Source: Chitinophagaceae bacterium
GTDB taxonomy: Bacteria; Bacteroidota; Bacteroidia; Chitinophagales; Chitinophagaceae
Length of the DNA: 64,000 nt
Reading direction: 5' to 3'
Assembly (NCBI GenBank): GCA_022843585.1
Contig: JALHNJ010000002.1
Location: 62,001 to 126,000, forward strand
Of this stretch, positions 41,229 through 64,000 are shown piece after piece. The notes beneath the pieces were generated by a model, which saw only the letters and a list, made by a program, of their open reading frames with translations, was not told the DNA's origin and ran no database searches. The position numbers were made by a program, and so were the translations under genes. The number at the start of each line of letters is the position of its first letter. The stretch's first letter is position 1.

Positions 41229-42302
41229 CTACATTTTCATCCCGTTGCCTTGCTTACGGGTGCGTTTTTTTTTGAGTTCGATGTCGTCACCGCCGTCGTC
41301 ACCGGGTTTGGCAGACTGCTTTTGCTGCTGCTGTTTGGGGGCGGGAATATCCATCAATTCTTCTTTCTGTTCCTTGCTCACTGGCTTCATGTGGCCGTCA
41401 TATACATTCAGCGTTCTCTCCTTGGGATTGGCTTCGACAAAACCTTTGACTTCTTCGCCATCTTTCAAAAAAGTAACGGACTGTACATTCCCTTTCATCA
41501 ATGAATTGTGCAGGGTATTATCTTGCTCAACATCCATCGGCTTCAGGATAAATTCGTTCAGGGTCTTTGTCAGATCAAAGTTGTAGTTGCTGTGAAAGCG
41601 TTGCAGGTCAAAATTTCCATTGTCTAATTTTTTTTCAAAATTGAGTTGAACCCATGCGTTATACTCCACCCCTTCTTTATTCACCAAATCCTTATTGACG
41701 GCACGGCCTTCGAGTAAATTGAATGCTTCTTTGGTCGTGATCGCATTGCCTTTGTCGAGATAAAAGCGTTGTGATTTTTCGGGATCATCTTTGAGCGTGG
41801 CCTGGTAATTATTGAAAAAATACATTTCATTTTCCTTCCCGGCCCTGAAAGAAAGATCCACCTGCATCGAGCGGCCACCGTACTGCATTTCACCGGCCAA
41901 GGTGAATTCGGGTTTTTGTTCTTCGATATTTTTTTTCATTTCTTCGTTGAATTCTTTGCCGAATCCCAGGTTCAATAACTTCTTTTCCAGGGCGGCTACA
42001 TTTTGTTCATTCATAGTTAATTCGTTTTTATTCGTTAATAATAATATGCGTAATTGTTCTCCATAGGGTACACTGTTCAGCAGTTCCTCCACTGAACGGA
42101 CATGAATCACTTTGAAATTGTCGTACTCACTGATATTGTTATCTGAAAATTCATCGGCTTCATCCTTTGTCTTAAAGAAATACATATCCGGCTTATCGAG
42201 AAAATAATTGATCTCATTGTAAGCGATAAAATGATTGCCCTTTTGCATTTCATTTTTTGCAATGGCCAATAGGTCATCTGCTATCACATGTTCCTTATTC
42301 AA
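41229..42302 (-). CDS. Conjugative-element protein of unknown function downstream of traN
   Basis: A 357-aa soluble protein. The N-terminal part (1-100) is mixed alpha/beta with no clear family. The central part (about 115-270) carries GEMQYGGRSMQVDLSFRAG and YFFNNYQATLK, and the C-terminus is Gln/Lys-rich and disordered (PKQQQQKQSAKPGDDGGDD, then a basic tail). The central region resembles proteins carried by Bacteroidota conjugative transposons, but I cannot name the domain with confidence. It overlaps traN by 4 nt and is followed by a terminator. Confidence 0.65.
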   Translation of the reverse strand: MNKEHVIADDLLAIAKNEMQKGNHFIAYNEINYFLDKPDMYFFKTKDEADEFSDNNISEYDNFKVIHVRSVEELLNSVPYGEQLRILLLTNKNELTMNEQNVAALEKKLLNLGFGKEFNEEMKKNIEEQKPEFTLAGEMQYGGRSMQVDLSFRAGKENEMYFFNNYQATLKDDPEKSQRFYLDKGNAITTKEAFNLLEGRAVNKDLVNKEGVEYNAWVQLNFEKKLDNGNFDLQRFHSNYNFDLTKTLNEFILKPMDVEQDNTLHNSLMKGNVQSVTFLKDGEEVKGFVEANPKERTLNVYDGHMKPVSKEQKEELMDIPAPKQQQQKQSAKPGDDGGDDIELKKKRTRKQGNGMKM

Positions 42303-43054
42303 TGCAAATCAGGTAATAAAGATGCTTTTAAAATATGCCCGTTATAAATTTTCAAATTGAAATGACGGCCACCTTTCTTCTCCATGATGCGGATGCCGAG
42401 CAACTTTGCATCGGGGATTGTGAACTTGTCGAGTGCGACAACGATGACTGAGTAATTATAGGCTTTCACTTGTTTTTTGTTGCCAGCGATATATAAGGGC
42501 GTTAATTCATTTTCCTGGATGGCGGTGCGTTTAGTTTGCTTTTTATCCCTGATGACAAATTGTAATAATTCAATATCATAATCGAGGGGACTGTGATTAC
42601 AGATTTCCAACTGGTAAAAGATCACTCCATCCTTGATATAAATACCCGTCAGCTTTGCAATGACATTGTACTTCTCCACCTTTAAGAGGCGGCGGGGTTT
42701 GTTATCAATAATACTATTCGCATACGTGGCGATACTTGTTTTCTTATTCGGCGGTAAATGAAAACTGAGTTCTGCAGGTGCGGGAGAATAATTCACTGTG
42801 AAGGTGTACACATTCCCATCAGCCGTTACCACACTTAAATTGGTTTCTGCAAATTGCCTGGACGCGGCTTTCACCAATAAAATATTATCATTCTCCTTTA
42901 TGGGTTGTACCAGTATATCCTTTGTTCCTCTATCAACATATTTAATAGGAAAGGGAAAGATGAGCGAAGTGGTTTTGTCGGTGGTGATCGCCAACGGTTG
43001 TTGAGCGTTTGCAAAATTTGAAAATGCGAATAAAAATATTATGATCTGTTTCAT
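42299..43054 (-). CDS. traN: Conjugative transposon protein TraN
   Basis: A 251-aa exported protein with a signal peptide (about 1-18, ending ANAQQ) and the TraN/DUF4138 features LIFPFPIKYVDRGTKDILVQ and ENDNILLVKAASRQFAETNL. TraN is thought to be a VirB9-like outer part of the mating channel. It overlaps traM upstream by 4 nt (ATGA), in the order M-N of Bacteroidota conjugative transposons. Confidence 0.9.
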   Translation of the reverse strand: MKQIIIFLFAFSNFANAQQPLAITTDKTTSLIFPFPIKYVDRGTKDILVQPIKENDNILLVKAASRQFAETNLSVVTADGNVYTFTVNYSPAPAELSFHLPPNKKTSIATYANSIIDNKPRRLLKVEKYNVIAKLTGIYIKDGVIFYQLEICNHSPLDYDIELLQFVIRDKKQTKRTAIQENELTPLYIAGNKKQVKAYNYSVIVVALDKFTIPDAKLLGIRIMEKKGGRHFNLKIYNGHILKASLLPDLH

Positions 43055-44193
43055 GGGTTTTGATTTTTATCTTTTAATAATACTTTGTAACCGGTCTTCA
43101 CCGATACCTTTATGAGCTTTGATCTTTTGGATAGTAAATTCTTTACTGCACCGATACCGGTTGCCGTTGCCTGTGCTTTGAAAGAAGGATCAACGGCAGT
43201 CATATCCATCAGTGATAAACTACCCGCCGCTGCCTCCTTGGCGGCATCCCTCGTGATCGTACCGGGAACATAAATTCCAGGCAAGCCATCTACATCATAC
43301 ACTTCTAATTTTACATTGTATATAAATTTGCCGCTGCGGATGGAATTAATTTCAATTTCCAGCCTTTCATTGTTGAGGGAGGCGATACCATTTATATATG
43401 TACCGGCTCTAATGAGCTGTCCCTTTATATAAATTTCATCCAGCAACCTGAATTTCACGACCGAACCATTGACCAAAACCTGATCACCATAGATGACCGC
43501 TTCGATCGCATTTTGCTCCTCCAATTCCTTTTCTTCGCTGTAGCTGTAGAAACCTTTGACAATCGTATCGCTGCCATTTGTTTTTCTTACAGCATAAACA
43601 GCCTCCCTATTTTTTCCTGTTCTTAACTTTACCCTTTCCGGATGTTGTATATCGAGGATCTTATCCAGCGTTCCCTGCAATTGTTTCATTTCAGGGTCTT
43701 CTGCGACTGTGGCATAATTTATTTCCGGTAAGTCCTGGTACATTTCAGGTTCATATTTTTTTTGTTCGGGTGCCGGTTGATTCAATTCCTGTTCCAGCAA
43801 TTTTAATTTCTTTAGCACCTGGTCTTCGGGATTTGAAAGGGATCTTTCGGACGGTGATAGATTCAACCCCTGGTAATATTTATTGCTGGTGGTTAACTCT
43901 TCGAGTTCAAAGGGCATCGTATCCTTCTTAAAGTAAGGATCATTGCGCATCCATTCCTCCATCTTTAAACTGTCTCTTGCAGCTTTGTCATAAAACCCCA
44001 ACTTGTCCAATAATTTATCCTCTTTCAAATTTGCGTTAGGCAGATCGAGGTTCAATCCCTTTGCTATTGCTTCTTCCTTGTTCTCCTTGCTTCCTCCGCC
44101 CAATGCCCAGAAAGCCATTGTTAAAAATGGGATGACCAGTACTGGTACTACCACCAAAAATTTTCTCCTTTTCACATTTGTACGCATACTCAC
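43051..44193 (-). CDS. traM: Conjugative transposon protein TraM
   Basis: A 380-aa protein with one N-terminal membrane segment (about 10-30, FLVVVPVLVIPFLTMAFWAL), a long low-complexity periplasmic linker, and the conserved C-terminal domain (about 215-345: AVIYGDQVLVNGSVVKFRLL, IYIKGQLIRAGTYINGIASL, GLPGIYVPGTITRDAAKEAA). It is VirB10-like, linking inner and outer membrane parts of the transfer channel. It overlaps the TraL-like gene by 4 nt. Confidence 0.92.
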   Translation of the reverse strand: MSMRTNVKRRKFLVVVPVLVIPFLTMAFWALGGGSKENKEEAIAKGLNLDLPNANLKEDKLLDKLGFYDKAARDSLKMEEWMRNDPYFKKDTMPFELEELTTSNKYYQGLNLSPSERSLSNPEDQVLKKLKLLEQELNQPAPEQKKYEPEMYQDLPEINYATVAEDPEMKQLQGTLDKILDIQHPERVKLRTGKNREAVYAVRKTNGSDTIVKGFYSYSEEKELEEQNAIEAVIYGDQVLVNGSVVKFRLLDEIYIKGQLIRAGTYINGIASLNNERLEIEINSIRSGKFIYNVKLEVYDVDGLPGIYVPGTITRDAAKEAAAGSLSLMDMTAVDPSFKAQATATGIGAVKNLLSKRSKLIKVSVKTGYKVLLKDKNQNP

Positions 44194-44600
44194 TTTGATT
44201 TTTGTTGTTGTAAATAAATTTCTTCTACTATTCGTATCGAGTCCTGCATCCCGGGACGGATGGCTTCACCGATACTATCCATATATCTTTTATATGATTG
44301 AATCTGATTGTATATATCATCCGGCATTTCGCTTTCCATTATTTCATCACCTGAGCGGTCAAAATGCTTTGGCATTTTCACCTGGTCAATTTTGAATGTT
44401 CGTTTTGGTTTTGAAATGATCGCATCCACGAAAAAGTAAATACTGAGAACGGCACTCAGCACACAAAATGAGATAAGGATAGTTTTTAAATTTTGCATCT
44501 TGTTCATACGATCAGCAATCTTTGTTTGCATGGTCATCAACCCGGTTGCAATCTTCCCGGCAATTTTGTCCTGCAAGGGGTTTTCTTTTTTCTTTCTCAT
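44190..44600 (-). CDS. Small membrane protein at the TraL position
   Basis: A 136-aa protein with one membrane segment (about 39-59, KTILISFCVLSAVLSIYFFV) and a helical, charged C-terminus. The sequence alone is not distinctive. It lies between traK and traM with 4-nt overlaps on both sides, where TraL is found in CTnDOT-type operons. TraL identity is inferred from gene order. Confidence 0.7.
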   Translation of the reverse strand: MRKKKENPLQDKIAGKIATGLMTMQTKIADRMNKMQNLKTILISFCVLSAVLSIYFFVDAIISKPKRTFKIDQVKMPKHFDRSGDEIMESEMPDDIYNQIQSYKRYMDSIGEAIRPGMQDSIRIVEEIYLQQQKSK

Positions 44601-45217
44601 TGCCTGTTCTCAATATTTATATCTTCATTCGCAATCGTCTTCCAGCGTTCGATCAAAAAACCGTGTGCGTTATTATCGGAACGGGATACATTTCTCAAAT
44701 AGCCTTCGGTAATTAAAGATCTTGTCACGATCGTGGTTGGCCGGATAATCTTCTGTGTTCCCTGATAGCGGAAATAATATGGATAGTCATTGGTATCAAT
44801 ACTGATACTGTCCGATTGCATCTCCTGGCTGATATTGCCCGAGATCAAATTGGTGTAATAGCCATTCTCTTTTAAATTATCATACTGTTGTTTGGCAGTC
44901 GCATCTGCGAGGTACAAGGCCTTGTTGATATTTGCGTTGATCACTTTATCATCCGGATCAAGCGTAAAGAAAAAGTGATGAAACATTTTTACATGATCAC
45001 GGGCTTCCACGGGAATATTATCCTTGCGGTCTGCGGCATAGGCTTCCAGTGCTTTTCCATTGGCGAGAATGAATATCTTTTGCTGCGACTGTGTAGCGAG
45101 TTGGTAGCTTTTGTATGAAATGAAAACCGTCAGCAATAAACAAACTATTATTACTGCTATTGAAAACAAACGCACCTGCTTAAAAGCAGTATCTATATTT
45201 TTAGTTGCCCTAAACAT
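44597..45217 (-). CDS. traK: Conjugative transposon protein TraK (VirB8-like)
   Basis: A 206-aa protein with an N-terminal membrane helix (about 17-37, LFSIAVIIVCLLLTVFISYK) and the TraK pattern (ILANGKALEAYAADRKDNIPVEARDHVKMFHHFFFTLDPDD region). The periplasmic domain is VirB8-like and is expected to scaffold the mating apparatus. It overlaps traJ by 8 nt and the TraL-like gene by 4 nt. Confidence 0.92.
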   Translation of the reverse strand: MFRATKNIDTAFKQVRLFSIAVIIVCLLLTVFISYKSYQLATQSQQKIFILANGKALEAYAADRKDNIPVEARDHVKMFHHFFFTLDPDDKVINANINKALYLADATAKQQYDNLKENGYYTNLISGNISQEMQSDSISIDTNDYPYYFRYQGTQKIIRPTTIVTRSLITEGYLRNVSRSDNNAHGFLIERWKTIANEDINIENRQ

Positions 45218-51549: not shown

Positions 51550-53982
51550 TCAGCTTTCACTCAACATTGCGCTTATCGCTTTTTCCAGATCACCGCCGAA
51601 TTTTTCGGCATACCCCATCAATTTCACTTTTTCAGTTTCTTCGGTCGTATAGGCTATGTACTCCTCCGGTGACACTTCTGTCCTGTACACTTTTGAGATC
51701 GTGCCACCCAGCGAAATAAAAACTTCTTTATACTTTTTATTTGGATCGTTTGCTTTATTGATAGATAATGCCAGTGCGACTTCTTTATTATTTAATCCGA
51801 GTAGATTTTGAATCTCTATGAACTTATTCTGGAATTTAGATTGATCCATGAGAATCTTACAATCGCTGCTATTAATAATTGCTTCCTTTACTATGGGAGA
51901 GTGAATAATATCATCCACTTCCTGTGTTACTACAATTGCCTCCCCGAAAAATTTGCGAACTGTTTTAAAAAGGTATTTCATGTACTCGGCCATGCCTTCC
52001 TTTGCGATTGCTTTCCATGCTTCCTCGATCAATATCATTTTACGGATTCCCGGAAGCTTCCGCATCTTAGACACAAAAATTTCCATGATTATTATTGTTA
52101 CAACAGGAAGTAAAATCGGATGATCCTTGATCTTATCCAGTTCAAAAACAATAAACCTCTCCTGCAGCATCTCCAGGTCTTTGGTCGCATTTAATAAATA
52201 ATCAAATTCACCTCCTTTATAAAAAGGACGAAGTACATAAAGGAAATTTGACATATCGAAATCCTTTTCCTTGACCTGGTCTTTTTTTAAAGCCTCTACA
52301 TATTCAGTTTGGAGGAAATCATAAAAAGAATCAAAACACCGGAAGCCCCGCTCCTTTGCATAATAGAGTTGCAAAGCATTGGACAGGGCGACATACTCTG
52401 AACGATTAAAAGTTTCGTTGTCCTTTTTCCAAAGGGCCAGCAACAATGTTTTGATGCTTTCTTTCTTTTCTGTATCGAGTGTGTCACCTTCCCCAATGTA
52501 AAATGGATTAAAACAGATGGGACTTTTTTCATCATAGGTGAAATAATATCCCTTTACCATCTGGCAAAGTCCTTTATAACTATGACCAACATCCACGAGT
52601 ACGATATGCGTTCCCTGTTCGTAATAGGAACGTACCATGTGGTTGGTGAAAAAACTTTTTCCGCTACCTGAAGGACCTAAAATAAATTTGTTACGATTGG
52701 TGATAATGCCTTTCTGCATGGGTTCATCACTGATGTCTACATACACGGGTTTCCCGGTCAGGCGGTCACCTAATCTTATTCCGCAAGGGGAAATGCTGGA
52801 GCGATAATTGGTTTCAAGATTTAAGAAACAACATGCCTGCTCCGCAAAGGTGTCGAAGGTATCATTCATTGGGAAGTCTGCTGCGTTCCCCGGTATGCCT
52901 GCCCAGAATATCTGCGGTGCGCCCGACAGCTCCTGCTTCGGTACCGCATCCATCTGGGACAGGGCTGATGATACCAGGTTACGAACTTCCTTCAACTCTT
53001 CTTTATCACTCGTCCACACTAAAACATTGAAATGGCTTTTCACAGGTAAACGTTGCTGTGCGATCGCTTCATTGAGAAAATCATTGGTGGCATCTCTTGC
53101 CATCGTATTCTCCCGTGAATAGGCACTGAGGCTATGCAAGCGTAAGCGTTTACTTTCTAATTTCTGTATGGTCTTCTGCGGGTCTTCAATAAAGATATAT
53201 TGATTGTATATATGATTACAGGATAGTAACTGTCCTAACGGCGATGCAAAGCCGATACTGAACCTGGTCTTATCGGTGGAATATTTATCGTAATTAATTC
53301 TTGAACCACAGTAAGATGGTAAATCAGCTGCATCCGACAGCGTGAATAACTGACAATGATTGATCCCCACTTTTATTCCATCTTCAAAGGAAATATCATT
53401 TACTACGAAGCTTCGTTCATTGGGTTGCAGATTCAAGTAGCGTTCGATCAACCCGCAATATTTTTTATTTCCGCTTAATTCAGAATCTGTCAATCGTTTC
53501 AATTCTACAAAGCCGCTGTCATTTAATATCCTTTCAAACTGACCTGCTGCATCCAAAAAGTCCTGTAAGAGTTGTGGCTTTAGTGTTTGCTCGGGAACAA
53601 TCGAACGACGCAATAAGTTTGAAAACAACGATGATCCCAATTTTCTGCCCGCCGGTTTTTTCGTGAGCATGATATAGCACTGGTGATGGAGGTAAGGCCG
53701 TTCATTGAAAAAACGTTCACTGGCTCTAGATAAAAAGCTAACACCTATTGCGCTGAAGTCAGCAGCATGTTTACTTTCGGTGAACCAGTCCTGTTTATGA
53801 AATACCGTGTTAGCGGGAAGAATTTTTATTGCTCTTAGTAATGTTTGATGCAGTGCCTCGTATTCCTGGTCGGATAAGGTAAAAAGTTCGGGCAACTGCA
53901 CTTCGTATACGATGGTGATATCACCTTGCTTTGAGAGTATGCAATCATTCTCGACACCGAAGATGGGTAATATGTCGCTCAA
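51550..53982 (-). CDS. traG: Conjugation ATPase TraG (VirB4-like)
   Basis: An 810-aa ATPase. An N-terminal VirB4-type domain is followed by Walker A ILGPSGSGKSFFTNH (near 435-450) and Walker B KMILIEEAWKAIA (near 645-657), then VTQEVDDI and the C-terminal helicase-like lobe. This is the TraG protein of Bacteroidota conjugative transposons, which energises pilus assembly and transfer. In related elements it directly follows traF, but here 4.5 kb of cargo intervenes. It is convergent with the Abi_2 gene with a 5-nt gap. Confidence 0.93.
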   Translation of the reverse strand: MSDILPIFGVENDCILSKQGDITIVYEVQLPELFTLSDQEYEALHQTLLRAIKILPANTVFHKQDWFTESKHAADFSAIGVSFLSRASERFFNERPYLHHQCYIMLTKKPAGRKLGSSLFSNLLRRSIVPEQTLKPQLLQDFLDAAGQFERILNDSGFVELKRLTDSELSGNKKYCGLIERYLNLQPNERSFVVNDISFEDGIKVGINHCQLFTLSDAADLPSYCGSRINYDKYSTDKTRFSIGFASPLGQLLSCNHIYNQYIFIEDPQKTIQKLESKRLRLHSLSAYSRENTMARDATNDFLNEAIAQQRLPVKSHFNVLVWTSDKEELKEVRNLVSSALSQMDAVPKQELSGAPQIFWAGIPGNAADFPMNDTFDTFAEQACCFLNLETNYRSSISPCGIRLGDRLTGKPVYVDISDEPMQKGIITNRNKFILGPSGSGKSFFTNHMVRSYYEQGTHIVLVDVGHSYKGLCQMVKGYYFTYDEKSPICFNPFYIGEGDTLDTEKKESIKTLLLALWKKDNETFNRSEYVALSNALQLYYAKERGFRCFDSFYDFLQTEYVEALKKDQVKEKDFDMSNFLYVLRPFYKGGEFDYLLNATKDLEMLQERFIVFELDKIKDHPILLPVVTIIIMEIFVSKMRKLPGIRKMILIEEAWKAIAKEGMAEYMKYLFKTVRKFFGEAIVVTQEVDDIIHSPIVKEAIINSSDCKILMDQSKFQNKFIEIQNLLGLNNKEVALALSINKANDPNKKYKEVFISLGGTISKVYRTEVSPEEYIAYTTEETEKVKLMGYAEKFGGDLEKAISAMLSES

Positions 53983-54064
53983 ATTCTTGATGCAGCAAAG
54001 ATTGCTGCGAAGAAGGGCGGGGTGGTTATGAAAAGGGAATTATGAATTGTGAAAGGAAATACTC

Positions 54065-55012
54065 TCATAAGATGTAAGAAAACCGGAAACGATCATCCCT
54101 CGTTACACTGGCACAATCAGTACAAGGAAATAAAGTGAAAGATTTAAAATTCTTTTTATCACGCATTGCTTTGAACATGACGGCAGCCTCCAACGAAAGA
54201 TAATTGTTATCAAGTACGCCCTTTGAAAGTGCAAGATTCAAACCCGTATTATCAGTCATAGAACTTGAATACAATATTCCTAATTCTTCCCCATAATATT
54301 CCTGTAGCGCATGAAAAAAGGCTGTTGTTAAAAGATAACTATTCCCCGCTACCTGTTTTTTTGCAGCTGCGTTTGAAAAGAAGGAATAGAATTGCCTGCA
54401 TTTCTCCCTATCTTCTTCATTGCACATACCGGAAATAAACTTTACATAATGCGGGTTAAGGTTACCAACGTGCCAACTCTTTTCTTCAGCGTTCTCAAAA
54501 AAAGTTAATACAACTGTAGTTATTGGCTTTACTATATTCCATTTGCCAATGGTAAAGTATTTGCAATCACAAACAGAGTTTGTATCAAATAACTCTTTAC
54601 ATGATTCACAGATCGTTGTTAATTGCCCGCTTGCATTGTGTGTAGTAATGGGCACAGCTCCATAAAAAACTGGTTCTCCTGAAAGATTAAATCTTCCTAA
54701 TCCTATTTTATCTTGTTTTGGATTGTACGATAAATCTGATATCCGGCTAAAAACTTCTCCATTGATGTTTTCCCGGCCACGGAGAATAAAGGTGTCCTGC
54801 AAGAGTTGAACCGGAAGTGGTAAGCGACATACCAGTTCAAAACAAAGGGATTTCAATTTCAAAAAGTCAGGATTGTCCAATAGCATTTCTTCCTGAAGCG
54901 AATGAATAAAATACATGACATCCTCTAAAGAAGAATTAATGGTCATTCCAGTAATCTTGTCCTGTTCATTTTCAGGACTAAACTCTATTATTTTATATTC
55001 TCTCATTCGCAC
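54065..55012 (-). CDS. RES-domain-like protein (possible NAD-consuming toxin family)
   Basis: A 315-aa protein. GLGRFNLSGEPVFYGA (104-119, with R107) resembles the GR(W/F)N..G.PvlY core of RES domains. Later GILYSSSMTDNTGLNLALS (245-263) resembles their (Y/I)-x-Y-x-S ... N-L-A-L segment, with E136 a possible third catalytic residue. Cysteine pairs (CESCKEL, CDCKYF, CTDC) suggest added zinc binding. RES toxins degrade NAD+; this activity is inferred. It is longer than typical RES toxins and no standard Xre-MbcA-type antitoxin is adjacent. It is divergent from the wHTH gene at 55128. Confidence 0.55.
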   Translation of the reverse strand: MRMREYKIIEFSPENEQDKITGMTINSSLEDVMYFIHSLQEEMLLDNPDFLKLKSLCFELVCRLPLPVQLLQDTFILRGRENINGEVFSRISDLSYNPKQDKIGLGRFNLSGEPVFYGAVPITTHNASGQLTTICESCKELFDTNSVCDCKYFTIGKWNIVKPITTVVLTFFENAEEKSWHVGNLNPHYVKFISGMCNEEDREKCRQFYSFFSNAAAKKQVAGNSYLLTTAFFHALQEYYGEELGILYSSSMTDNTGLNLALSKGVLDNNYLSLEAAVMFKAMRDKKNFKSFTLFPCTDCASVTRDDRFRFSYIL

Positions 55013-55088
55013 GTTAATGAGTACCCTCTAAGCTACGAAATTACTAATTAATTTAGTTGTTTCAGGCTAAAAATTATTTATTAATTCT

Positions 55089-55116
55089 TAATTCGCAATT
55101 TGCAAATTGCGAATTA
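55089..55116. promoter_or_regulatory. Perfect 28-bp palindrome, probable operator of the toxin-antitoxin pair
   Basis: A perfect palindrome with 14-nt half-site TAATTCGCAATTTG and no spacer, 11 bp before the ATG of the wHTH gene. It lies between two divergent genes, so it could control both. Autoregulation by the wHTH protein is the natural inference. Confidence 0.75.
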
Positions 55117-55127
55117 TATTTGCAATT

Positions 55128-55646
55128 ATGCGAAAACACAGTGGTATGCGGCCGCAGGATATTGTTATCCTGCTTAAAATAATTGCAAAAAAGGATCAGC
55201 CCTGGCAATTCAAGGATCTGGCCCAGGAACTACATATCAGCCCTTCTGAGATTTCGGAATCACTGCACCGTAGTTCTATAGGCGGTTTGATCGAGGCGGA
55301 TACCCGAAAAAAAGTATACCGGCAATCATTAATAGAATTCCTTGAACACGGTCTTCATTATGTTTTCCCTGCATTGCCCGGCAGTATGGTCAACGGAATA
55401 TACACCGCCCATTCACATCCTATCATGCAAAAAGAATTTGCATCGGACAGTTTGCCGTATGTCTGGCCGGAACCAAGGGGTGCGGTAAGAGGGTTGGCGA
55501 TTGAGCCATTATATAAAGAACAGGTTGAGGCAGTACGGAAAGATCCAATCTTATATGAAATGCTTGCACTGCTGGATGTGATCCGTGTAGGAAGAGTGCG
55601 TGAAGTTAAGTTTGCCATTGAAGAATTAAAACGATTGATATTATGA
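55128..55646 (+). CDS. Winged-helix regulator/antitoxin of an AbiE-like system
   Basis: A 172-aa protein whose N-terminal winged helix (about 8-60: DIVILLKIIAKKDQPWQFKDLA, then ISPSEISESLHRSSIGGLI) is followed by a C-terminal helical domain. It overlaps the nucleotidyltransferase gene by 4 nt, the arrangement of AbiE-type (type IV) antitoxin-toxin pairs. ATG at 55128 (MRKHSGMRPQD) is chosen. It probably binds the 28-bp palindrome at 55089-55116. Confidence 0.8.
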   Translation: MRKHSGMRPQDIVILLKIIAKKDQPWQFKDLAQELHISPSEISESLHRSSIGGLIEADTRKKVYRQSLIEFLEHGLHYVFPALPGSMVNGIYTAHSHPIMQKEFASDSLPYVWPEPRGAVRGLAIEPLYKEQVEAVRKDPILYEMLALLDVIRVGRVREVKFAIEELKRLIL

Positions 55647-56332
55647 ATAAAAATCACCGTGAAAATATTACCCGCATCCGGGCTGTCTATAATGCATTGG
55701 GAAACCTAAAAGATAAAGTTGTCTTTGTTGGTGGTGCTACTGTATCACTCTATGCGCAACGGGAAACCAGTGATATACGGGAAACAAGAGATATAGATAT
55801 ACTAGTTGAAATAGCTTCCCATCCTGAGTACGCTGCACTTGAACAACAATTACGGGACATGGGTTTCAGCAATGATCCTACGGCAAAATTTGTCGGCAGG
55901 TATTTACAACATGGCCTTATCGTTGATGTGATGCCAACGGATGAAAGCATATTAGGATTTTCTAACCGCTGGTACAAAGAGGGTTTTAGCACTGCTATTA
56001 ATTACAAAATTGACCCACAACACCCCGTGAAGATATTTGATACTCCCTATTTCATTGCCTCCAAATTAGAAGCTTTTAAAAATCGTGGAAAAGGTGATGG
56101 TCGCCAAAGCAGCGACTTTGAAGATATTGTTTTCATATTGGAAAACAGGGAAAGCGTTTGGAGAGAAATGCAAGCGACAACCCCAGCCCTCAAAGAATAC
56201 CTGTTAACAGAATTTAAAGGTCTTTCACAAAATCCTTATATCGAAGAATGGGTCGGCAGTCATTCAAGTTTTTTTTCCCCTCCGAGTGCTTACCTCATCC
56301 TACAGGATATGCGGGCATTCCTGAAAGATTAG
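55643..56332 (+). CDS. AbiEii-like nucleotidyltransferase (probable toxin)
   Basis: A 229-aa protein with the minimal nucleotidyltransferase fold. VFVGGATVSLYAQRE carries G30-G31, and TRDIDILVEI carries D50-x-D52; a later LIVDVMPTD may supply the third acidic residue. A KLEAFKNRGKGDGRQSSDFEDI segment matches the AbiEii/AbiGii family. Known members add nucleotides to tRNA ends or otherwise arrest the cell. It is translationally coupled (ATGA) to the regulator gene. Confidence 0.85.
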   Translation: MNKNHRENITRIRAVYNALGNLKDKVVFVGGATVSLYAQRETSDIRETRDIDILVEIASHPEYAALEQQLRDMGFSNDPTAKFVGRYLQHGLIVDVMPTDESILGFSNRWYKEGFSTAINYKIDPQHPVKIFDTPYFIASKLEAFKNRGKGDGRQSSDFEDIVFILENRESVWREMQATTPALKEYLLTEFKGLSQNPYIEEWVGSHSSFFSPPSAYLILQDMRAFLKD

Positions 56333-56883
56333 CCATTGTATAACTGATAGCGATCAGTGTATTTAGAAAAATCAATTACCCGCTTACTGTTGTCACTGAA
56401 ACCGGCGTGTTGTACTGCTGTCATTGGATCGCATACAACAAACCTCCCTTTGCCTGCGAGCTGCCTGTCAAAATCAGTTCCGGGTACCAGGTCTAAAAAT
56501 GCATTATAAAACTTTTCGCTAATCGTATATAGAGTTGTTCCGGAAAAATCATGTACTGTTTGGTCCGGCATAATATTACCCCATATAATACCTCCGAGAT
56601 ACAAATCAAAATCATCCGGCATCTTTTGCAAATAATATCTCCAAGCTCCTTTCGCAGTAAATTTTAAATCGTCCTCAGCAATGGTGATTTGCTTCAATCC
56701 TTCCTGACTGGCAAATCTTACGATCTGTTGATGTGCCTTTAAAATTCCTCTGGCAGGACATTCGGGATCTGCTATTCCCTCCCATATTCTCCTGAAAGGT
56801 ATTTGCTGAATCCGCAACTCATCCATGAATAAGGCAAACCGATCTTTACGATGTGACAGATGCAGGATATTAAGAGTTATCAT
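56329..56883 (-). CDS. GT25-like glycosyltransferase-family protein
   Basis: A 184-aa protein: MITLNILHLSHRKDRFALF, then IPFRRIWEGIADPECPARGI, AHQQIVRFASQEGLKQITI and AEDDLKF. The R-K-D-R start and the E-D-D motif match family 25 (LPS biosynthesis) glycosyltransferases, where the acidic pair binds metal-nucleotide sugar. It is shorter than many members. ATG at 56883 is chosen from several candidates and overlaps the upstream gene by 14 nt. It is convergent with the AbiEii-like gene, overlapping its last 4 nt. Confidence 0.7.
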   Translation of the reverse strand: MITLNILHLSHRKDRFALFMDELRIQQIPFRRIWEGIADPECPARGILKAHQQIVRFASQEGLKQITIAEDDLKFTAKGAWRYYLQKMPDDFDLYLGGIIWGNIMPDQTVHDFSGTTLYTISEKFYNAFLDLVPGTDFDRQLAGKGRFVVCDPMTAVQHAGFSDNSKRVIDFSKYTDRYQLYNG

Positions 56884-58318
56884 TGCCATCATCATGAATC
56901 TTAAATAAGTTATCAAAAATAAATTGAGGCTTTATATAGGACATAGTTGCCGTTCCTGTTTCCAATAAAATCCGTTCTGCTTCCAGTACAGAAGAAAGAA
57001 CAGACTTCTCTGATTGAAGGAAATTAACAATGTAAGTAATGAACAAATCAAAATGCTGTACCCCTTTTTTAAAACCGGCCTTATTTTTCCTTGTTTCAGC
57101 GGACAAATATTTAGAATCGACATAATAACCTTGTACCTGCAAATCTTCAATCAAATGCACGGGATTAAATAAGCTGAACACAATAAAATGGGAGAAATAC
57201 AAATCTTTTAAAAGTGATCCATCAAGCGGGTACCAAAAAAGTGGTATCGTTCCCGACGTATTCTTATCCCCGAAATCAGGATTATATAATAGTTGCCCCA
57301 TTATAAGACCATTATTCTTTGAGTTCTGTTTTACTAGTTTTTTAGCGGGTTCAATGATATTTTGTGGCAGATTATTTATAAGCCTTTCGTATTTTCTATT
57401 AAAAGTCCGGGTAAATAGTGAAGCGGATGGAAACCGCATACCTGCAAATAATAATCCATCGCCTGCGTGGACAAATATAGGTTTCACAAATCCTGATTGA
57501 CTATAAAGATCCTGGATTTCCTTAAAATAAAAGGAACCTTCAAGGTTTGTTGAATAGTTATTTTTATTTTTTTGTGACTTCACTATTTTAGCAATTGCTT
57601 CAACCTGTTTTTTCAATTTATCAGCTATTCGTTGGTCCATGCCGGCATGCGGCTTAATCGTGGACAGCACCTGTTCTTTTGGTTTTTTTTGAATTTTAGT
57701 ACCAATGAGTGTAAGCGAAAGCTCCAATTTGTTATCCTCTAATTTCTTAGTTTTCAGCTCCGCTATTTCTGTAATTTCATGTTCCAATAAATCATAAAAA
57801 CTAAAATCCCCATAGCGTAATATGCTAGTTGTCCCATGGTAAATAGTGAGTTTGCCATCCAGGTGCTTATAATTCTGAAGAAAAGCCAGCTCACCCTCCC
57901 CTCCGATTCCCGAAACAAAACCTTGAATCCGTTTATGCAAATATTGACTCTCCAATAAATCAAGATTTGCCCTGTAGAAGAAAAATGCAAATGCATCCCC
58001 AATCGCTTTACCTATATTGATGACTTGATTGCTCCCTGTTGAATAACTTGTTAAGTTTTTCATTCGACCTGCAAACCATTCTTTTTTATACTTTTTTTTA
58101 TGCTCAACCAGATAGCGCATCCTTTGAGCTATCCGGTTACGCAGGTTTTGCAGTTTAAATAAAGCGAAGGCCAACCTTTCCTGAAACAAAATTAAATCGT
58201 TAGCCAGATCCTTTGTAGACTCTCCTCTTTTCAAAGCTCCCAATACTTTCCAGCAATGGTCGTAAGATTCTTCACAGAATTTAAAAACTTCTTTTATCTC
58301 TTTAACCGTTACTTGCAT
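56870..58318 (-). CDS. Unknown 482-aa protein with PD-(D/E)XK-like pattern
   Basis: A 482-aa protein of no known family. The stretch from E143 (GGEGELAFLQNYKH), through D171 or D176 (RYGDFSFYDLLEHE), to E187-L-K189 (EIAELKTKK) has the E...D...ExK order of PD-(D/E)XK nucleases, so a nuclease core is possible. The N-terminal 130 residues are helical; the rest is unassigned. It has no signal peptide. The gene overlaps the GT25-like gene downstream. It is preceded by a terminator and the permuted tRNA, so it should have its own promoter in the short gap 58319-58334, or be read through the hairpin. Confidence 0.6.
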   Translation of the reverse strand: MQVTVKEIKEVFKFCEESYDHCWKVLGALKRGESTKDLANDLILFQERLAFALFKLQNLRNRIAQRMRYLVEHKKKYKKEWFAGRMKNLTSYSTGSNQVINIGKAIGDAFAFFFYRANLDLLESQYLHKRIQGFVSGIGGEGELAFLQNYKHLDGKLTIYHGTTSILRYGDFSFYDLLEHEITEIAELKTKKLEDNKLELSLTLIGTKIQKKPKEQVLSTIKPHAGMDQRIADKLKKQVEAIAKIVKSQKNKNNYSTNLEGSFYFKEIQDLYSQSGFVKPIFVHAGDGLLFAGMRFPSASLFTRTFNRKYERLINNLPQNIIEPAKKLVKQNSKNNGLIMGQLLYNPDFGDKNTSGTIPLFWYPLDGSLLKDLYFSHFIVFSLFNPVHLIEDLQVQGYYVDSKYLSAETRKNKAGFKKGVQHFDLFITYIVNFLQSEKSVLSSVLEAERILLETGTATMSYIKPQFIFDNLFKIHDDGNDNS

Positions 58319-58334
58319 GTTGGAATTAAATTAA

Positions 58335-58366
58335 TATAAAAGGCTGCAACACTGCAGCCTTTTATA
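58335..58366 (-). terminator. Strong hairpin immediately after the permuted tRNA
   Basis: A perfect 14-bp stem (58335-58348 with 58353-58366, G/C-rich core GGCTGCA/TGCAGCC) with a 4-nt loop. On the minus strand the 3' arm ends TTTTATA. Its first base follows directly after the last anticodon-loop base of the tRNA 5' half at 58367. It probably ends transcription of the permuted tRNA and could also work in the other direction. Confidence 0.75.
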
Positions 58367-58473
58367 AATACAATCAGGTGCGTTTAACCACTTCGCTACA
58401 CTCCCCAAAAGTGTTGCTTTTATCATTTGTGGGAGCGGAGGGATTCGAACCCCCGAAGACCGAAGTCACCTGA
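58367..58473 (-). tRNA. Circularly permuted tRNA-Tyr (anticodon GUA), 3' half upstream of 5' half
   Basis: On the minus strand the 3' half comes first (58473 to 58430): anticodon-stem strand TCAGG, long variable arm with GAC-TTCG-GTC hairpin, T-stem GGGGG/CCCTC with loop TTCGAAT, acceptor strand CGCTCCC and discriminator A. A 24-nt spacer (58429-58406) follows. Then comes the 5' half (58405 to 58367): acceptor GGGAGTG, T8, A9, D-arm GCG/CGC with A14 and G18-G19, anticodon-stem strand CCTGA, loop TTGTATT with GTA at 58371-58369. Both stems split by the permutation pair fully (acceptor 7/7 with one G-T, anticodon stem 5/5), and G15-C48 is kept. A73, G1-C72 and the long variable arm fit bacterial tRNA-Tyr. 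No CCA is encoded. It could be functional or a recombination product. Confidence 0.8.
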
Positions 58474-58497
58474 GAGAAGTTTGAGCAACGCTTGTAT

Positions 58498-58505
58498 CAA
58501 ATTTA
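58498..58505 (-). promoter_or_regulatory. Possible -7 promoter box for the permuted tRNA
   Basis: Minus-strand TAAATTTG matches TAnnTTTG and ends 25 nt before the tRNA 3' half. No good TTG was found at the usual distance upstream, so promoter function is uncertain. Confidence 0.35.
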
Positions 58506-58525
58506 CGAAATGCCGAATAAATAAT

Positions 58526-58861
58526 TCAGATATCAATCCCTCTTTTAGCTAAATCCGTAAAGTTCTTTCTTGAATAGGATTTGATGACCGGGGGTATTGA
58601 TCGTTTCGCAAGAGTTTTCATCATGCCGTGCTGACCGTGTTTGCGGCTCATTTTGTAGACCTGCATGAATAAGGCAGTAGCGGCGGTGATTATTATTAAT
58701 AGACAGAGGAAAGTGTTGACGCCCGCAATATATAAAGTTGCAAATAAAATTAGGAGGGCTAAAAGCCCTCCTCCGAGATACCATATATATTGCGCCTTTA
58801 ACCCTTTGAATTCGATGGGACGATTGATGCCTTTATTGACCTGGTAAACACTTGTATTCAT
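58526..58861 (-). CDS. traF: Conjugative transposon protein TraF (DUF4133)
   Basis: A 111-aa protein with the family start YQVNKGINRPIEFKGLKAQY, then two membrane segments (about 26-48 and 50-68). It is VirB3-like in the mating channel. Normally traG follows directly; here the permuted tRNA and a 4.5-kb cargo block separate them. Its start overlaps the 149-aa gene by 4 nt. Confidence 0.92.
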   Translation of the reverse strand: MNTSVYQVNKGINRPIEFKGLKAQYIWYLGGGLLALLILFATLYIAGVNTFLCLLIIITAATALFMQVYKMSRKHGQHGMMKTLAKRSIPPVIKSYSRKNFTDLAKRGIDI

Positions 58862-59307
58862 ATTCGTCTTCCCTTTGTTCTTTTTGTGGATCTTGCTTTT
58901 TTATTTTTTTCCATTATTTCCTCAAAGCCCGTCTCTGACAAAGGAATGATCGTTGCTTTCAATTCCTTCTCTATCGGATGTCTCTTGACAAATTCGACAG
59001 GGTCGAGGCCTGCCTCCCTCGCGAAGCTGTAAGGATCCATTTTCAATTCATCGGGTATCTCCACCACCACTACTTTCTCCGGCCACTCTGTAATCTTCTG
59101 ATCAATACTAACGAGTTGTTTTGTTTCCGTATTAAATGCAAAGCGATACGAATCACCATTGGGACCGACTTCTAATTTATCCAAATCAATCCTGGACATT
59201 AACTGGTAATCTGCTCTCAATTCATGCGCCCTTATATCCACATAAAACATGGTACCTGCAATATCAATTACGGGCAATTTCCCACTCATCCGCTGTTGCA
59301 AATCCAT
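58858..59307 (-). CDS. Unknown tra-operon protein, 149 aa
   Basis: A 149-aa soluble protein with no signal peptide: MSGKLPVIDIAGTMFYVDIR at the start, KVVVVEIPDELKMDPYSFAR in the middle, and a basic tail (KKARSTKRTKGRRI). No domain is recognised with confidence. It sits between traF (4-nt overlap) and the T9SS-sorted protein (1-nt overlap), so it is co-translated with the tra genes. Confidence 0.65.
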   Translation of the reverse strand: MDLQQRMSGKLPVIDIAGTMFYVDIRAHELRADYQLMSRIDLDKLEVGPNGDSYRFAFNTETKQLVSIDQKITEWPEKVVVVEIPDELKMDPYSFAREAGLDPVEFVKRHPIEKELKATIIPLSETGFEEIMEKNKKARSTKRTKGRRI

Positions 59308-60515
59308 TACCGGGTAATTATAATTTGCTTAGTAAATCGCTGGGTGGCTGATTGTAAGATTGCAGTATACAACCCGGGTGGTAAATTTAGATCGATACGG
59401 CGGATCAATGTTCCTCCTTCATAAATGATCATTTTCTGTTTGAGGCGTTGGTTACTACTACTGACTACTGAAAAAATATAACGACCTGCTTCGGCATTCT
59501 CTAAACGAATATTCAGTTCATTACTAGTAACGGGGTTGGGATATATAGAAAATAGCTGCAAGCCTTGAGCCGTGAGCTGTGAGATGGTTATGATGACACT
59601 ATAATATATGGTGCCATCCATTTCAACTGCTTTGATGCGGTAATAATTTTTATTATCAAGCTGGGTAGTGGAAAAATCATAGGTTGCGCTTCCACCTGCA
59701 TTTGAAGATGCCAAAGTTGTTCCGATCTTTTGGAAATTGATCCCATCTGTTGAACGCTCTATTTCATATACCGCAACGTTTGATTCGGTTAAATTGGTCC
59801 AGGATATAGTGGCCCTGTTTGCAGCGTCTATATTTCCGTTGACATTGGCAAAACGTACCGGCAAGGTGATGATCTCGCTATCGGAAGTATCGGCCTGCAA
59901 TACACCCCGCCTAACATATTGCAGTGTACCGCAAGTAAAGTTGTACAAATTGTAAGGTGCTGTCGGGGGAACCGGTGCCCAAAAATTTATATTGCCGGGT
60001 GCATCAAAGTATGGATGTGGCCAGGCAAAGTAAGGCAAACTTATATTTGGTGCGGTAAAACGTTCTATTGCTTCGCCGGTGCCCCCATCGATATCCCAGT
60101 AGGATACGCCGATCCAGCCGCAATCTAATGTATGCCCATTGACGACATATAACGTGGACAATCCAGCGATACAATCAATATAACTTTCGCCCATTGAGTT
60201 ATAATAGGAAACTGCTTTGGGGGCGGTAAAGCTATAGTGATCATAATTGTTTCCTGCGGAATCAAGCACAGCACCTATGAGACTTCCATATTGCAGCCCT
60301 TCCTTATATACATAGAGCTGATAGTTGGTGACGGCAACAGGTGTGTACGCTCCTGCCCCATTTACTTCGTAGAATGAAAGCATCAACCGATTTTCTCTTT
60401 TTGGTGGATTGGGAAAATCATCGACCAATCTTGTTGCGGTATACCTTGCTTTGATGGCGATGTACTGGGCGTTCACGAAGGTGGGGAACAAAAATAAAAG
60501 TAAAATAATTTTCAT
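59307..60515 (-). CDS. Secreted protein with T9SS type-A sorting domain inside the tra operon
   Basis: A 402-aa exported protein with a signal peptide (MKIILLLFLFPTFVNAQ), a beta-rich N-terminal half, a fibronectin-like segment at about 235-320 (INFQKIGTTLASSNAGGSAT, DNKNYYRIKAVEMDG), and a C-terminal T9SS sorting domain (LFSIYPNPVTSNELNIRL, LPPGLYTAIL, and the end KQIIITR). It is expected on the cell surface via T9SS. ATG at 60515 gives the signal peptide. It lies between traE and traF and may aid surface contact in mating; that is inference. Confidence 0.8.
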   Translation of the reverse strand: MKIILLLFLFPTFVNAQYIAIKARYTATRLVDDFPNPPKRENRLMLSFYEVNGAGAYTPVAVTNYQLYVYKEGLQYGSLIGAVLDSAGNNYDHYSFTAPKAVSYYNSMGESYIDCIAGLSTLYVVNGHTLDCGWIGVSYWDIDGGTGEAIERFTAPNISLPYFAWPHPYFDAPGNINFWAPVPPTAPYNLYNFTCGTLQYVRRGVLQADTSDSEIITLPVRFANVNGNIDAANRATISWTNLTESNVAVYEIERSTDGINFQKIGTTLASSNAGGSATYDFSTTQLDNKNYYRIKAVEMDGTIYYSVIITISQLTAQGLQLFSIYPNPVTSNELNIRLENAEAGRYIFSVVSSSNQRLKQKMIIYEGGTLIRRIDLNLPPGLYTAILQSATQRFTKQIIITR

Positions 60516-60540
60516 AAGACTTGATTTATAGGTTAAGAAT

Positions 60541-60834
60541 TTAGACTCCGAAGAATGACCGTATAACCGTTGCAACTACAACAAGGAACACACAACTGCC
60601 AAACCATGCAGCAGCAACTTTTCCTGTATCGGGATCACCGCTGTTCCATTTACTGTAGACTTTTACTGCGCCGATCAATCCGAGTACGGCACCGACGGCA
60701 TACATTAAATTGGTTCCGGAGGCGAAATAGGATCTTACTTTTTGGTTGGCTTCGTTGATACCGGCATTACCATCCTGGGATAAAGAAACAAGGCACAAGA
60801 AGCAAGACACAAGAATTACACAAATTTTTTTCAT
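60541..60834 (-). CDS. traE: Conjugative transposon protein TraE (DUF4134)
   Basis: A 97-aa protein with a signal peptide (about 1-20), GINEANQKVRSYFASGTNLMYAVGAVLGLIGAVKVYSKW, and two membrane segments. The family signature W-x-S-G-D-P-D-T-G-K is present (KWNSGDPDTGKVAAAWFGS). It is VirB2-like, a probable pilin or channel subunit. It starts the E-F part of the tra operon. Confidence 0.92.
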   Translation of the reverse strand: MKKICVILVSCFLCLVSLSQDGNAGINEANQKVRSYFASGTNLMYAVGAVLGLIGAVKVYSKWNSGDPDTGKVAAAWFGSCVFLVVVATVIRSFFGV

Positions 60835-60879: not shown

Positions 60880-61272
60880 CTATATCCATAGCACACGCTG
60901 ATCTTCCTCACTGAGATGGATGGAGCATATTGATTCGCTCTTCATTGCGATAAATGCATTGATGGTTTCCCGGAAGGCGGGTTCGTCCCACTGTTTATAG
61001 CGTTTTAATTTTAGTTGTAACGCAAGTGTGAGTTCATTTTTATTGAGGCGCCGGTGGAAGACCGCATGTAATTCTTCCATTATATCCTGCATAGTGGGTT
61101 GCCATTCTTCTGTCTCTTCCTGCTGCTGGAATGAAAATGTGTTTCTACTATTGAAATCAAAAATGGCTGGCAGCTTTGCTTTGTAGAAAACGATCCAGAT
61201 GAAACTGTAATACAGGAGATTGGCAATTATAAGAAAGACTATAAAGTTATACCAGGAGAATGCACTCAACAT
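60880..61272 (-). CDS. Small membrane protein upstream of traE
   Basis: A 130-aa protein with one N-terminal membrane segment (about 8-30, FIVFLIIANLLYYSFIWIVF) and a soluble helical domain (about 60-125: MQDIMEELHAVFHRRLNKNE, LALQLKLKRYKQWDEPAFRE). No family was recognised. It lies 45 nt before traE and is probably part of the same transcript. Confidence 0.6.
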   Translation of the reverse strand: MLSAFSWYNFIVFLIIANLLYYSFIWIVFYKAKLPAIFDFNSRNTFSFQQQEETEEWQPTMQDIMEELHAVFHRRLNKNELTLALQLKLKRYKQWDEPAFRETINAFIAMKSESICSIHLSEEDQRVLWI

Positions 61273-61450: not shown

Positions 61451-64000
61451 TTAATCAATCTTACTTTTCTTAAGAACTTTAATAGTAACACTGGGATTGT
61501 TCACCCGGTATAATTTTATTTTTTTGGCAAATCTTCTCCGGATTGCAATATCCCTTGCTGCTACTGCATTCGCCCGTGAAGCGCAATCAGTAATAATGAG
61601 ACGCCAGCGTTTGAAGATACCGCCACGTTTGACCAACTTCGTTTTAATATCGGGGTACTTTGCATTAACAGAGCTGTTAAGCAGTTCTGCCTTTTTCAAA
61701 CTACCGAATGCTGCAATGCTTGTATAATATTGTTCCGCCTCTCTTCCGGGGCATGTAAAAAATTGAGCAGAATATTCCTCTACAGTTGAAAATGTAATTG
61801 CACGAACATCCAATCCCGGATCACTAACTACTTCACAGGTCAGATCCTGGTGCAACATATTTCCATTCGCATCCTGGGTGGCGGGAAAAGGATTCTGCGG
61901 ACATTCCACGTGGGTATATCGGGATGCATTTAATTCTGGAATTTCACCCAATGCTCCCAATGCTGATAGAGGAAATAATTTATAAAAAACACGCTCCCGA
62001 ATATAGGGATCGACCCAGAGTCTAAATCCTTTCTCCCTGGTACCATCGGCAAAATAATTATAGCCATAATTTTGTTTCCTGGCTCCAGGGCCGATTCCTC
62101 CTTTCCTGGGATAGGGTAAGGCAAAAGCCTGCCATTGGTGATTGCCATCAATACTTTTTACAGCATCCAGCAGAATTGTAAAGTTTGGTTCATTGGAACG
62201 AAAGTAAGTGGACCCATAATAGGGAGAGTTGTATTCTCCGACATAATTTTTTATTAATTGGTTCAACGCCGCCGGATCAAGTAGTGCTAATTTAGCAAGC
62301 GTAACAGAGTTTCGTAAAGGACCAAATTTCTCCGTATTTAAAAATCCATTCTCCACTTTCAAATCTTTTAATACAACCGAAGAAACGTCTGTAAAGGTTA
62401 AAAGTCGTTTGGTAGTTCCATCCTCCCTGAACACTTCATTCAATTTACCCAGCGTAGCATTCTCGGGATTTACTAAAACATTTAAGAATTCAGCCGTTGC
62501 TTCATCTGTGACAAATGCAGTAAGACTAAAAAAAGCTTTTTCCATTTCGGGTTTTGCTTCGGCCGTAATCAGCTCACTGATTTTTTTTGTTGGAGCAACC
62601 ACCCATTGCAGCCATTCGGGTAAGCGCTCAATTAGTTTATCGTACTTTTCTTTTAGTTTAGCCAACTCTTCAATAAGGAAGCATCCGCCTTCCATGAATT
62701 GAATAGGAACACCCGTAAATACTAATCCATAACAACTGAGCCATTTAGTATATTCATCGAGGGGGTTGCCTGTTCCACTCACCATTTTTACTCCAGCTCT
62801 TTCGCTTGCCAGAATATATTCCTCGGTTGCTTTATCAATTCCCTTCACCCAATTCCCCATCAACAAGGTCAGGCTGTTATACTTATCGTAAAGCTTTTTA
62901 ATCTCGTCAACAATGGGATCGATCTTATCTACTTCTTCCTGTGCTTTCGCCACTACTTCAATCGCTTTTTCTACTCCCTCCCTTGCTTTATTCACAGCAG
63001 TTTGCTGTAGTTGCAAATTCGCAGAGGCTGCATCTATTGCCAATTCAAAGGTTCGATCAGCAAGTCCATTAACAGCTGCGTTATAATCTTTTTGTAAGCG
63101 CTTCAGCTTTTCATTTATCTCCTTTTTTAAATTCTCCGCCGTTTCAGCTGCTTGTTTTGCAGCATTGATACTTGCATTTAATACTCTGATATCTGCCTCT
63201 AATCCCCCGATATCTCCAAGCAGTCCACGAACAACCTTATTACAAGGTCCTCTCAGCGGACGAGGCAAGCGGCCGCAACCCTTATCACTTATTTTTTTCC
63301 GGAGTTTTCCAATCTTACTATACAAACTTCCTATCCGATCAAGTGCATTGGCAGATATCCGAACACTGGCGCTGGCCAGCTCCGTGGCAATTCTTGTTTG
63401 TGTTATAAGGGCATTTTGCTGAACGTCAATTAATGCCGGATACTTAGCCCTGATCTCTTTTGCATTTTCCCATACCTTTTTTGCCTCGTCCAATACTTTT
63501 TGTTTTACTTCCAATAAGTCAGCTGCAATCCGCAATCCTTCCCTTGCAGTAACCAAATTTAATTGAGCAGTACCCAAGGACCCGTAATAATCATTTTGTA
63601 ATTTATAATAAGTTGCCGCCCATTTTGAATACTCTTCCACCAACGCCTGTGATCCCTTTTGTATTCCTGCAACTGACTTCTGCGCCACATACATCGCACC
63701 GAGATGAAATCCGGTTTTTGCTTTTAGATTTTCTTTAAATACATCATCATTTAAGATGAGTGTTTTTTTTATAAAATCTGCCGGCGCTGATAAGCGACTG
63801 GTCCAGCTAACCGGGTTACCCGCATTATCAAGCGGAACGGGTGTCAGCCCTTCTATATATTTTTCCAATACAAAATGCCGCAATTCTACTTCTCTTTCGG
63901 GATCCGTCAATTCAAAGATGTCTCCTGCATATGCATTCACGTATGTATGGGCAAAGATGTCGGAACTGGCATGGACGGAAAATCCGTAGCTGAAGGCAAT
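61451..64000 (-). CDS. Large exported coiled-coil protein (5' end outside window)
   Basis: The frame remains open to the right edge, so the start lies outside; about 849 residues are visible. A GTG at 63940 is not the true start, since upstream residues (IAFSYGFSVHASSDIFAHTY) look like a signal peptide remainder or mature N-terminus. Residues after about 90 hold long coiled coils with heptads and a few cysteines (KGCGRLPRPLRGPCNK). The C-terminal third is mixed alpha/beta. The family was not recognised. It is probably a periplasmic or surface protein of the conjugative element. Confidence 0.65.
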   Translation of the reverse strand: MAFSYGFSVHASSDIFAHTYVNAYAGDIFELTDPEREVELRHFVLEKYIEGLTPVPLDNAGNPVSWTSRLSAPADFIKKTLILNDDVFKENLKAKTGFHLGAMYVAQKSVAGIQKGSQALVEEYSKWAATYYKLQNDYYGSLGTAQLNLVTAREGLRIAADLLEVKQKVLDEAKKVWENAKEIRAKYPALIDVQQNALITQTRIATELASASVRISANALDRIGSLYSKIGKLRKKISDKGCGRLPRPLRGPCNKVVRGLLGDIGGLEADIRVLNASINAAKQAAETAENLKKEINEKLKRLQKDYNAAVNGLADRTFELAIDAASANLQLQQTAVNKAREGVEKAIEVVAKAQEEVDKIDPIVDEIKKLYDKYNSLTLLMGNWVKGIDKATEEYILASERAGVKMVSGTGNPLDEYTKWLSCYGLVFTGVPIQFMEGGCFLIEELAKLKEKYDKLIERLPEWLQWVVAPTKKISELITAEAKPEMEKAFFSLTAFVTDEATAEFLNVLVNPENATLGKLNEVFREDGTTKRLLTFTDVSSVVLKDLKVENGFLNTEKFGPLRNSVTLAKLALLDPAALNQLIKNYVGEYNSPYYGSTYFRSNEPNFTILLDAVKSIDGNHQWQAFALPYPRKGGIGPGARKQNYGYNYFADGTREKGFRLWVDPYIRERVFYKLFPLSALGALGEIPELNASRYTHVECPQNPFPATQDANGNMLHQDLTCEVVSDPGLDVRAITFSTVEEYSAQFFTCPGREAEQYYTSIAAFGSLKKAELLNSSVNAKYPDIKTKLVKRGGIFKRWRLIITDCASRANAVAARDIAIRRRFAKKIKLYRVNNPSVTIKVLKKSKID

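Follow-up and report, generated by a model that had tools for sequence, protein, structure and literature searches.

To our knowledge, little is known about how the conjugative elements of Bacteroidota find and hold their recipients. Among the described systems, PrgB, known as the pCF10 aggregation substance, belongs with the LPxTG adhesins of Gram-positive conjugative plasmids, which are anchored by sortase and promote mating pairs, according to the available part of PMC12857230. TraN of F-like plasmids is a protein of the donor surface that binds an outer-membrane protein of the recipient and stabilises mating pairs, as described in the accessible sections of PMC9246713. The IncHI plasmids encode in their transfer region a secreted protein with an Ig-like domain, RSP, which is needed for conjugation in liquid (PMC6764697, available part). 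The type IX secretion system (T9SS) and conjugative transposons are treated apart in passages of PMC5714932. Furthermore, no report of a T9SS-tailed gene in a conjugative element was found in a full-text literature search, outside which most subscription papers fall.

The gene described here is a lineage-specific accessory gene in the transfer operon of CTnDOT-like elements of Chitinophagaceae. It lies in a stretch of 64,000 nucleotides from a Chitinophagaceae genome, which is referred to in full as the window. A first-pass annotation of this stretch had placed a T9SS-sorted gene at 59307-60515 among mating-channel genes, which is borne out by an exact open reading frame (ORF) on the minus strand and by family matches of traE, traF and traG. 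The features concerned are as follows.

60880..61272 (-), gene of 130 aa preceding traE, unmatched in Pfam and NCBIfam
60541..60834 (-), traE (DUF4134), PF13572 E 1.3e-37
59307..60515 (-), T9SS-tailed protein of 402 aa, an ORF with TIGR04183 above cut-off, traE-adjacent in 15/15 distinct copies
60468..60515 (-), signal peptide of that protein, residues 1-16, read by eye from the sequence
59862..60467 (-), orphan N-terminal domain, residues 17-218, without Pfam or NCBIfam match
59571..59861 (-), Fn3-like beta-sandwich, residues 219-315, model pLDDT ~60-90
59316..59546 (-), T9SS type A sorting domain, residues 324-400, TIGR04183
58858..59307 (-), 149-aa gene that separates the T9SS gene from traF, with homologues at other traE-traF junctions
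58526..58861 (-), traF (DUF4133), PF13571 E 1.9e-38
51550..53982 (-), traG (VirB4-type ATPase), TIGR03783 1101.7 bits
45210..46367 (-), traJ, PF07863 E 3e-20
44597..45217 (-), traK, TIGR03781 243.4 bits, cut-off 152.45
43051..44193 (-), traM, PF12508 E 3.1e-49
42299..43054 (-), traN-type gene (DUF4138), PF13595 E 3e-62

The T9SS gene runs from an ATG at 60515 to a stop ending at 59307 in the ORF listing of the window. Its reported place between traE and traF stands, with the refinement that the 149-aa gene separates it from traF. Near-zero spacing had been claimed for one side and is actually tight on both: the gap from traE is 25 nt, and the stop overlaps the start of the 149-aa gene by 1 nt (TAATG). 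The 149-aa gene itself has no match in Pfam and NCBIfam. The CTnDOT-type gene set of the window comprises traE, traF, traG, traJ, traK, traM and the traN-type gene, of which the last, at 42299..43054, is taken by us to be TraN by name. Additionally, traF has a sub-threshold match to VirB3 (E 0.073). Of the 14 other loci bearing the T9SS gene, 12 have a homologue of the 130-aa gene ahead of traE, and none was picked up at L055 and G021. Neither a relaxase nor a coupling protein was found among the window proteins scanned, which cover part of its ORFs, and the element ends were not found.

Several further observations concern the surroundings of the operon. In the window, about 4.5 kb (53983-58525) part traG from traF, two genes that overlap in L058, L059 and L061. 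This insert carries a plus-strand gene pair (55107-56332) that presumably resembles an AbiE-type toxin-antitoxin, and an Abi_2 family gene (PF07751, E 1.3e-57) lies directly behind traG at 50648-51544 on the plus strand. Next to traF, positions 58397-58466 (minus strand) resemble the 3' portion of a tRNA or tmRNA; Rfam scores are far under the gathering score, ARAGORN finds none, and the genome contains this sequence a single time. Immediately beyond the transfer operon, at 61451-64000 and further (L131:2452-5397), a 981-aa protein is encoded that has a domain like zinc-dependent phospholipase C (PF00882, E 1.9e-8) and a coiled coil whose match to a surface exclusion model is sub-threshold (20.7 bits, cut-off 70). 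Redoxin- and SusD-family genes are located upstream of the transfer operon at L131:16194-18976, and L058-L061 show by eye proteins of similar size and order upstream of theirs.

Residues 1-16 of the window protein form, as judged by eye, a Sec-type leader that ends in VNA before Q and has no lipobox. Likewise by eye, all 15 copies open with a short hydrophobic leader and then Q-Y-I. At the other end of the protein, the sorting tail scores 26.5 bits against TIGR04183, for which the cut-off is 23; the sorting domain of the first-pass annotation is retained, as is, by eye, its signal peptide. The same stretch scores 22.5 bits against PF18962 of Pfam, under the cut-off of 27, and the window tail alone is therefore a modest match. 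The family profile also matches the tail of Endonuclease I, 8glk_D (E 0.0025). Most Foldseek matches of the full model are tandem domains of Fn3/Ig-like type; they are due to the C-terminal module and have low TM-scores. Similarity to a Hoc-like phage family (E 0.0051) is confined to the Fn3-like part. From about residue 214 on, the protein resembles many other proteins of the same genome, its C-terminal module having 33 matches there.

The N-terminal domain is of a different kind. Pfam and NCBIfam searches gave zero matches over residues 17-218, and a PDB sequence search gave a single chance-level match (E 0.14). AlphaFold2 did not resolve the domain in two runs (pLDDT mostly <50), which therefore leaves it without a fold-based function. 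No similarity of this domain to known adhesin families was seen in Pfam, NCBIfam or PDB sequences, the same resources in which the whole protein lacks an adhesin domain of known family; nor does the protein resemble known exclusion proteins in Pfam or NCBIfam. At the level of sequence, no relative of the orphan domain was found outside the family of this gene.

In all, 12 genomes were found to carry the gene, at 15 distinct loci. Searches with the orphan domain gave nine copies in 6 of 195 family genomes, and hits in 2 of 395 genomes of a phylum sample, both within the family Chitinophagaceae. A pattern scan of genome_contigs gave nine loci with the orphan domain, labelled Chitinophagaceae, Chitinophagales or, once, Sphingobacteriales; three of the nine were taken as the same as G084, G086 and G091 and counted once. 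Viral contigs, plasmids and phages yielded zero matches to the orphan domain. Other elements had been suggested as a place to look for sorting-domain genes at the same site, and such genes are indeed present there, in one lineage: traE lies directly upstream of all 15 distinct copies with a gap of 24-126 nt (in L060, N letters mask all of traE but its end). On the downstream side, nine of the 15 genes share 1 or 11 nt with the gene that follows and four are followed by gaps of 3-121 nt; of the remaining two, L060 reads as one ORF into traF, and L062 is ambiguous through the choice of start codon.

The source genome harbours four full-length copies and four DUF4134 genes, each copy following one of them, and the co-resident copies are 54-58% identical to the window copy. 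Chance adjacency to traE was rejected because each of these four copies adjoins a DUF4134 gene and all 15 copies lie behind traE. A host gene caught beside the element was likewise rejected, since every copy in the genomes searched is next to traE. G084 has six or more full-length DUF4134 genes, of which a single one is accompanied by the T9SS gene. The 15 bases before the gene, AAATCAAnnCTTATG (window 60513-60527, minus strand), are exact in 8 of the 15 loci. They were dropped as a regulatory candidate, as the leader of the lipo244 control is nearly as conserved (0.52 vs 0.58 over 15 bases), and may be only an A-rich start region.

The sorting tail recurs throughout this set. TIGR04183 is matched at E 0.01 or better by 14 of the 15 distinct copies (18 rows, two sets of 9), and the score is above the cut-off in six, namely the window copy, L055, L056, L058, L059 and L062. 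The tail of L060 is incomplete (12.7 bits against TIGR04183, profile positions 2-52 only). At L060:7941-9491, the frameshifted T9SS gene and traF make up a single 516-aa ORF, which is either a pseudogene-like change or an assembly error of the MAG. SprA (SprA_N), the translocon protein of the T9SS, was found in 7/7 genomes searched, the source genome included, and also in G118, where the T9SS gene is missing. As to the marks of a T9SS type A cargo, the window protein has the TIGR04183 tail and the host encodes SprA. Operon membership, sorting tail and SprA in the genome are consistent with the earlier suggestion that the element would use the T9SS of its host.

A survey of DUF4134 located 113 places in 195 family genomes, and the best 94 of the 113 were examined. 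The T9SS protein is present at 9 of these 94 traE loci and missing at 85. Elsewhere, traF or traG follows within 150 nt of traE at 48 of the 94, at 150-2000 nt at 17 and at more than 2000 nt at 16; four stretches end before traF or traG, and 17 family loci are shorter than 4 kb. Outside the family, 46 regions covering 54 DUF4134 places contain zero T9SS proteins, with traF or traG at less than 150 nt in 40, at 150-2000 nt in three and at more than 2000 nt in three, and none of the 46 ending before them. A tail profile built from 19 sorting tails detected no other T9SS-tailed gene at the 85 other family loci or in any of the 46 outside regions. The junction holds varied genes elsewhere, including a 146-aa gene with or without a ~1830-aa helicase-methylase-like protein (labelled by eye), genes of the 149-aa type and a 447-aa protein in L098, and therefore admits other genes too. 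The L098 protein stands at the site of the T9SS gene and has no NCBIfam match. The arrangement with the 146-aa and ~1830-aa genes is seen in many elements, e.g. L010:10359-16300, L132 and L133.

The gene follows the lineage of its element. The 79-row TraG tree has the 12 rows with the T9SS gene together on one side of a branch with support 91. In a quick TraG tree of 53 rows, restricted to fuller loci with distant rows dropped beforehand (16 T9SS rows from 15 loci), the trait needs 2 changes, where shuffling gives 14.0 on average. One element without the gene, L132 (G118), has L057 as its sister (support 96) and is nested in the gene-bearing lineage; its junction is filled by a 71-aa ORF, the 146-aa gene and a large helicase-methylase-like gene. 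L106, also without the gene, sits at an unresolved fork with L055 and the rest (support 89). The distribution is read here as one gain and at least one loss, two gains being a possible alternative. The first-pass annotation had named the absence of the gene from related elements with normal transfer as speaking against it; absence as such is found, both at 85 of the 94 family traE loci (best 94 of 113) and in L132. For this reason, the gene is accessory rather than core, and transfer is not obviously dependent on it.

Selection acts unevenly along the protein. The mean pairwise identity over the 15 loci is 71% for the orphan domain, 50% for the Fn3 part and 40% for the tail, and 86% for TraG, 81% for TraE, 76% for TraF and 40% for the 130-aa gene. 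The orphan domain is under purifying selection, with a dN/dS of 0.03-0.13 in six close pairs (dS is saturated in a seventh), compared with 0.02-0.06 for TraG. The tail has a dN/dS of 0.18-0.21 in four pairs and 0.63 in one, the latter based on three changes; a value of 0.79 for L058/L060 was set aside because L060 is frameshifted there. From these ratios and the identities per region, it follows that the element-specific orphan domain is the part kept by selection. Moreover, the four co-resident orphan domains differ beyond the expectation from TraG, 15 of 1365 four-locus sets being as extreme (15/495 and 17/330 after removal of near-copies). No such excess was found among the four co-resident copies in the Fn3 part, tail, TraF or TraE. 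As one genome and five regions were compared, this excess is a lead only.

Our best guess, by analogy, is a role in mating contact. With slightly less than even confidence, we propose that the gene may be a mating-contact accessory of one CTnDOT-like lineage, displayed via the host T9SS. The protein would be made together with the mating channel, be carried through the inner membrane by Sec and through the outer one by the T9SS of the host, and end up displayed on, or shed from, the donor; a type A tail alone does not tell display from release. The orphan domain would bind a surface feature of Chitinophagaceae cells and raise mating-pair contact, a part that could be likened to that of PrgB with the host sortase, TraN with recipient porins and RSP in IncHI. 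A more far-reaching version, possible but held with somewhat lower confidence, is that the elements have wired the host T9SS into their transfer operon for partner recognition, through a dedicated surface protein produced alongside the pilin-like TraE, with T9SS-dependent mating and partners set by the orphan domain. If true, the divergence of the co-resident orphan domains would reflect selection for different specificities. The same divergence, beyond TraG distances and among four such elements in one genome, is also what favours exclusion or self-recognition, in which the protein blocks re-mating of element-holding cells or marks kin. However, it comes from a single genome with five regions compared and is weak once near-copies are removed, the orphan domain is otherwise well conserved over the 15 loci, and Pfam and NCBIfam offer no similarity to a known exclusion protein. 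We consider exclusion unlikely.

Another account treats the junction as an insertion slot and the protein as cargo that serves the host in binding, degradation or protection, not in transfer. The unrelated genes carried by the junction elsewhere are what a cargo slot would hold, the gene has been lost from or never gained by L132, and the host has many T9SS proteins that share this C-terminal module (the 33 matches). Nevertheless, cargo genes are usually exchanged more freely, whereas this gene is always the first behind traE, is tightly spaced, tracks the TraG lineage and has no copy elsewhere in the genomes searched, and a pure cargo function appears doubtful to us. The protein might instead be a channel part that caps or modifies the TraE filament, with a tail that merely brings it there. 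TraE is presumably the pilin of the conjugative filament; its gene is the neighbour of the T9SS gene, many copies of which are also coupled to the tra gene that follows. But traE stands without the T9SS gene at 85 of the 94 family loci and the orphan domain has no model. A channel part is held to be very improbable. The reading preferred here is that of mating contact. An activity of the protein in mating would connect gene transfer with the T9SS, a system peculiar to this phylum. Even as cargo alone, it would mark the traE-traF junction as a slot of the transfer operon for accessory genes in the elements of the family.

Compared with the known systems, the protein combines familiar traits in an unfamiliar setting. 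Like PrgB, as far as the available part of its source describes it, it would be an element-encoded surface protein relying on a host machine, the T9SS here instead of sortase; it differs in its export route and in the lack of an LPxTG or polymer adhesin domain in Pfam and NCBIfam. With TraN, going by the accessible sections on that protein, it would share a place on the donor surface, but family searches give no sequence match between the two. TraN belongs to a transfer system of its own, for which a T9SS route is not known. RSP, in the available account, is large and exported by the type IV system that the plasmid itself encodes, whereas the present protein has 402 aa and a T9SS tail. TraT, a surface exclusion protein, is likewise an outer-surface protein of a conjugative element, but no similarity to it was found in Pfam and NCBIfam. 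In its signal peptide, Fn3-like domain and TIGR04183 tail, the protein is like the T9SS type A cargo of Bacteroidota; it differs from such cargo in being encoded inside a conjugative transfer operon and in carrying an N-terminal domain found only there.
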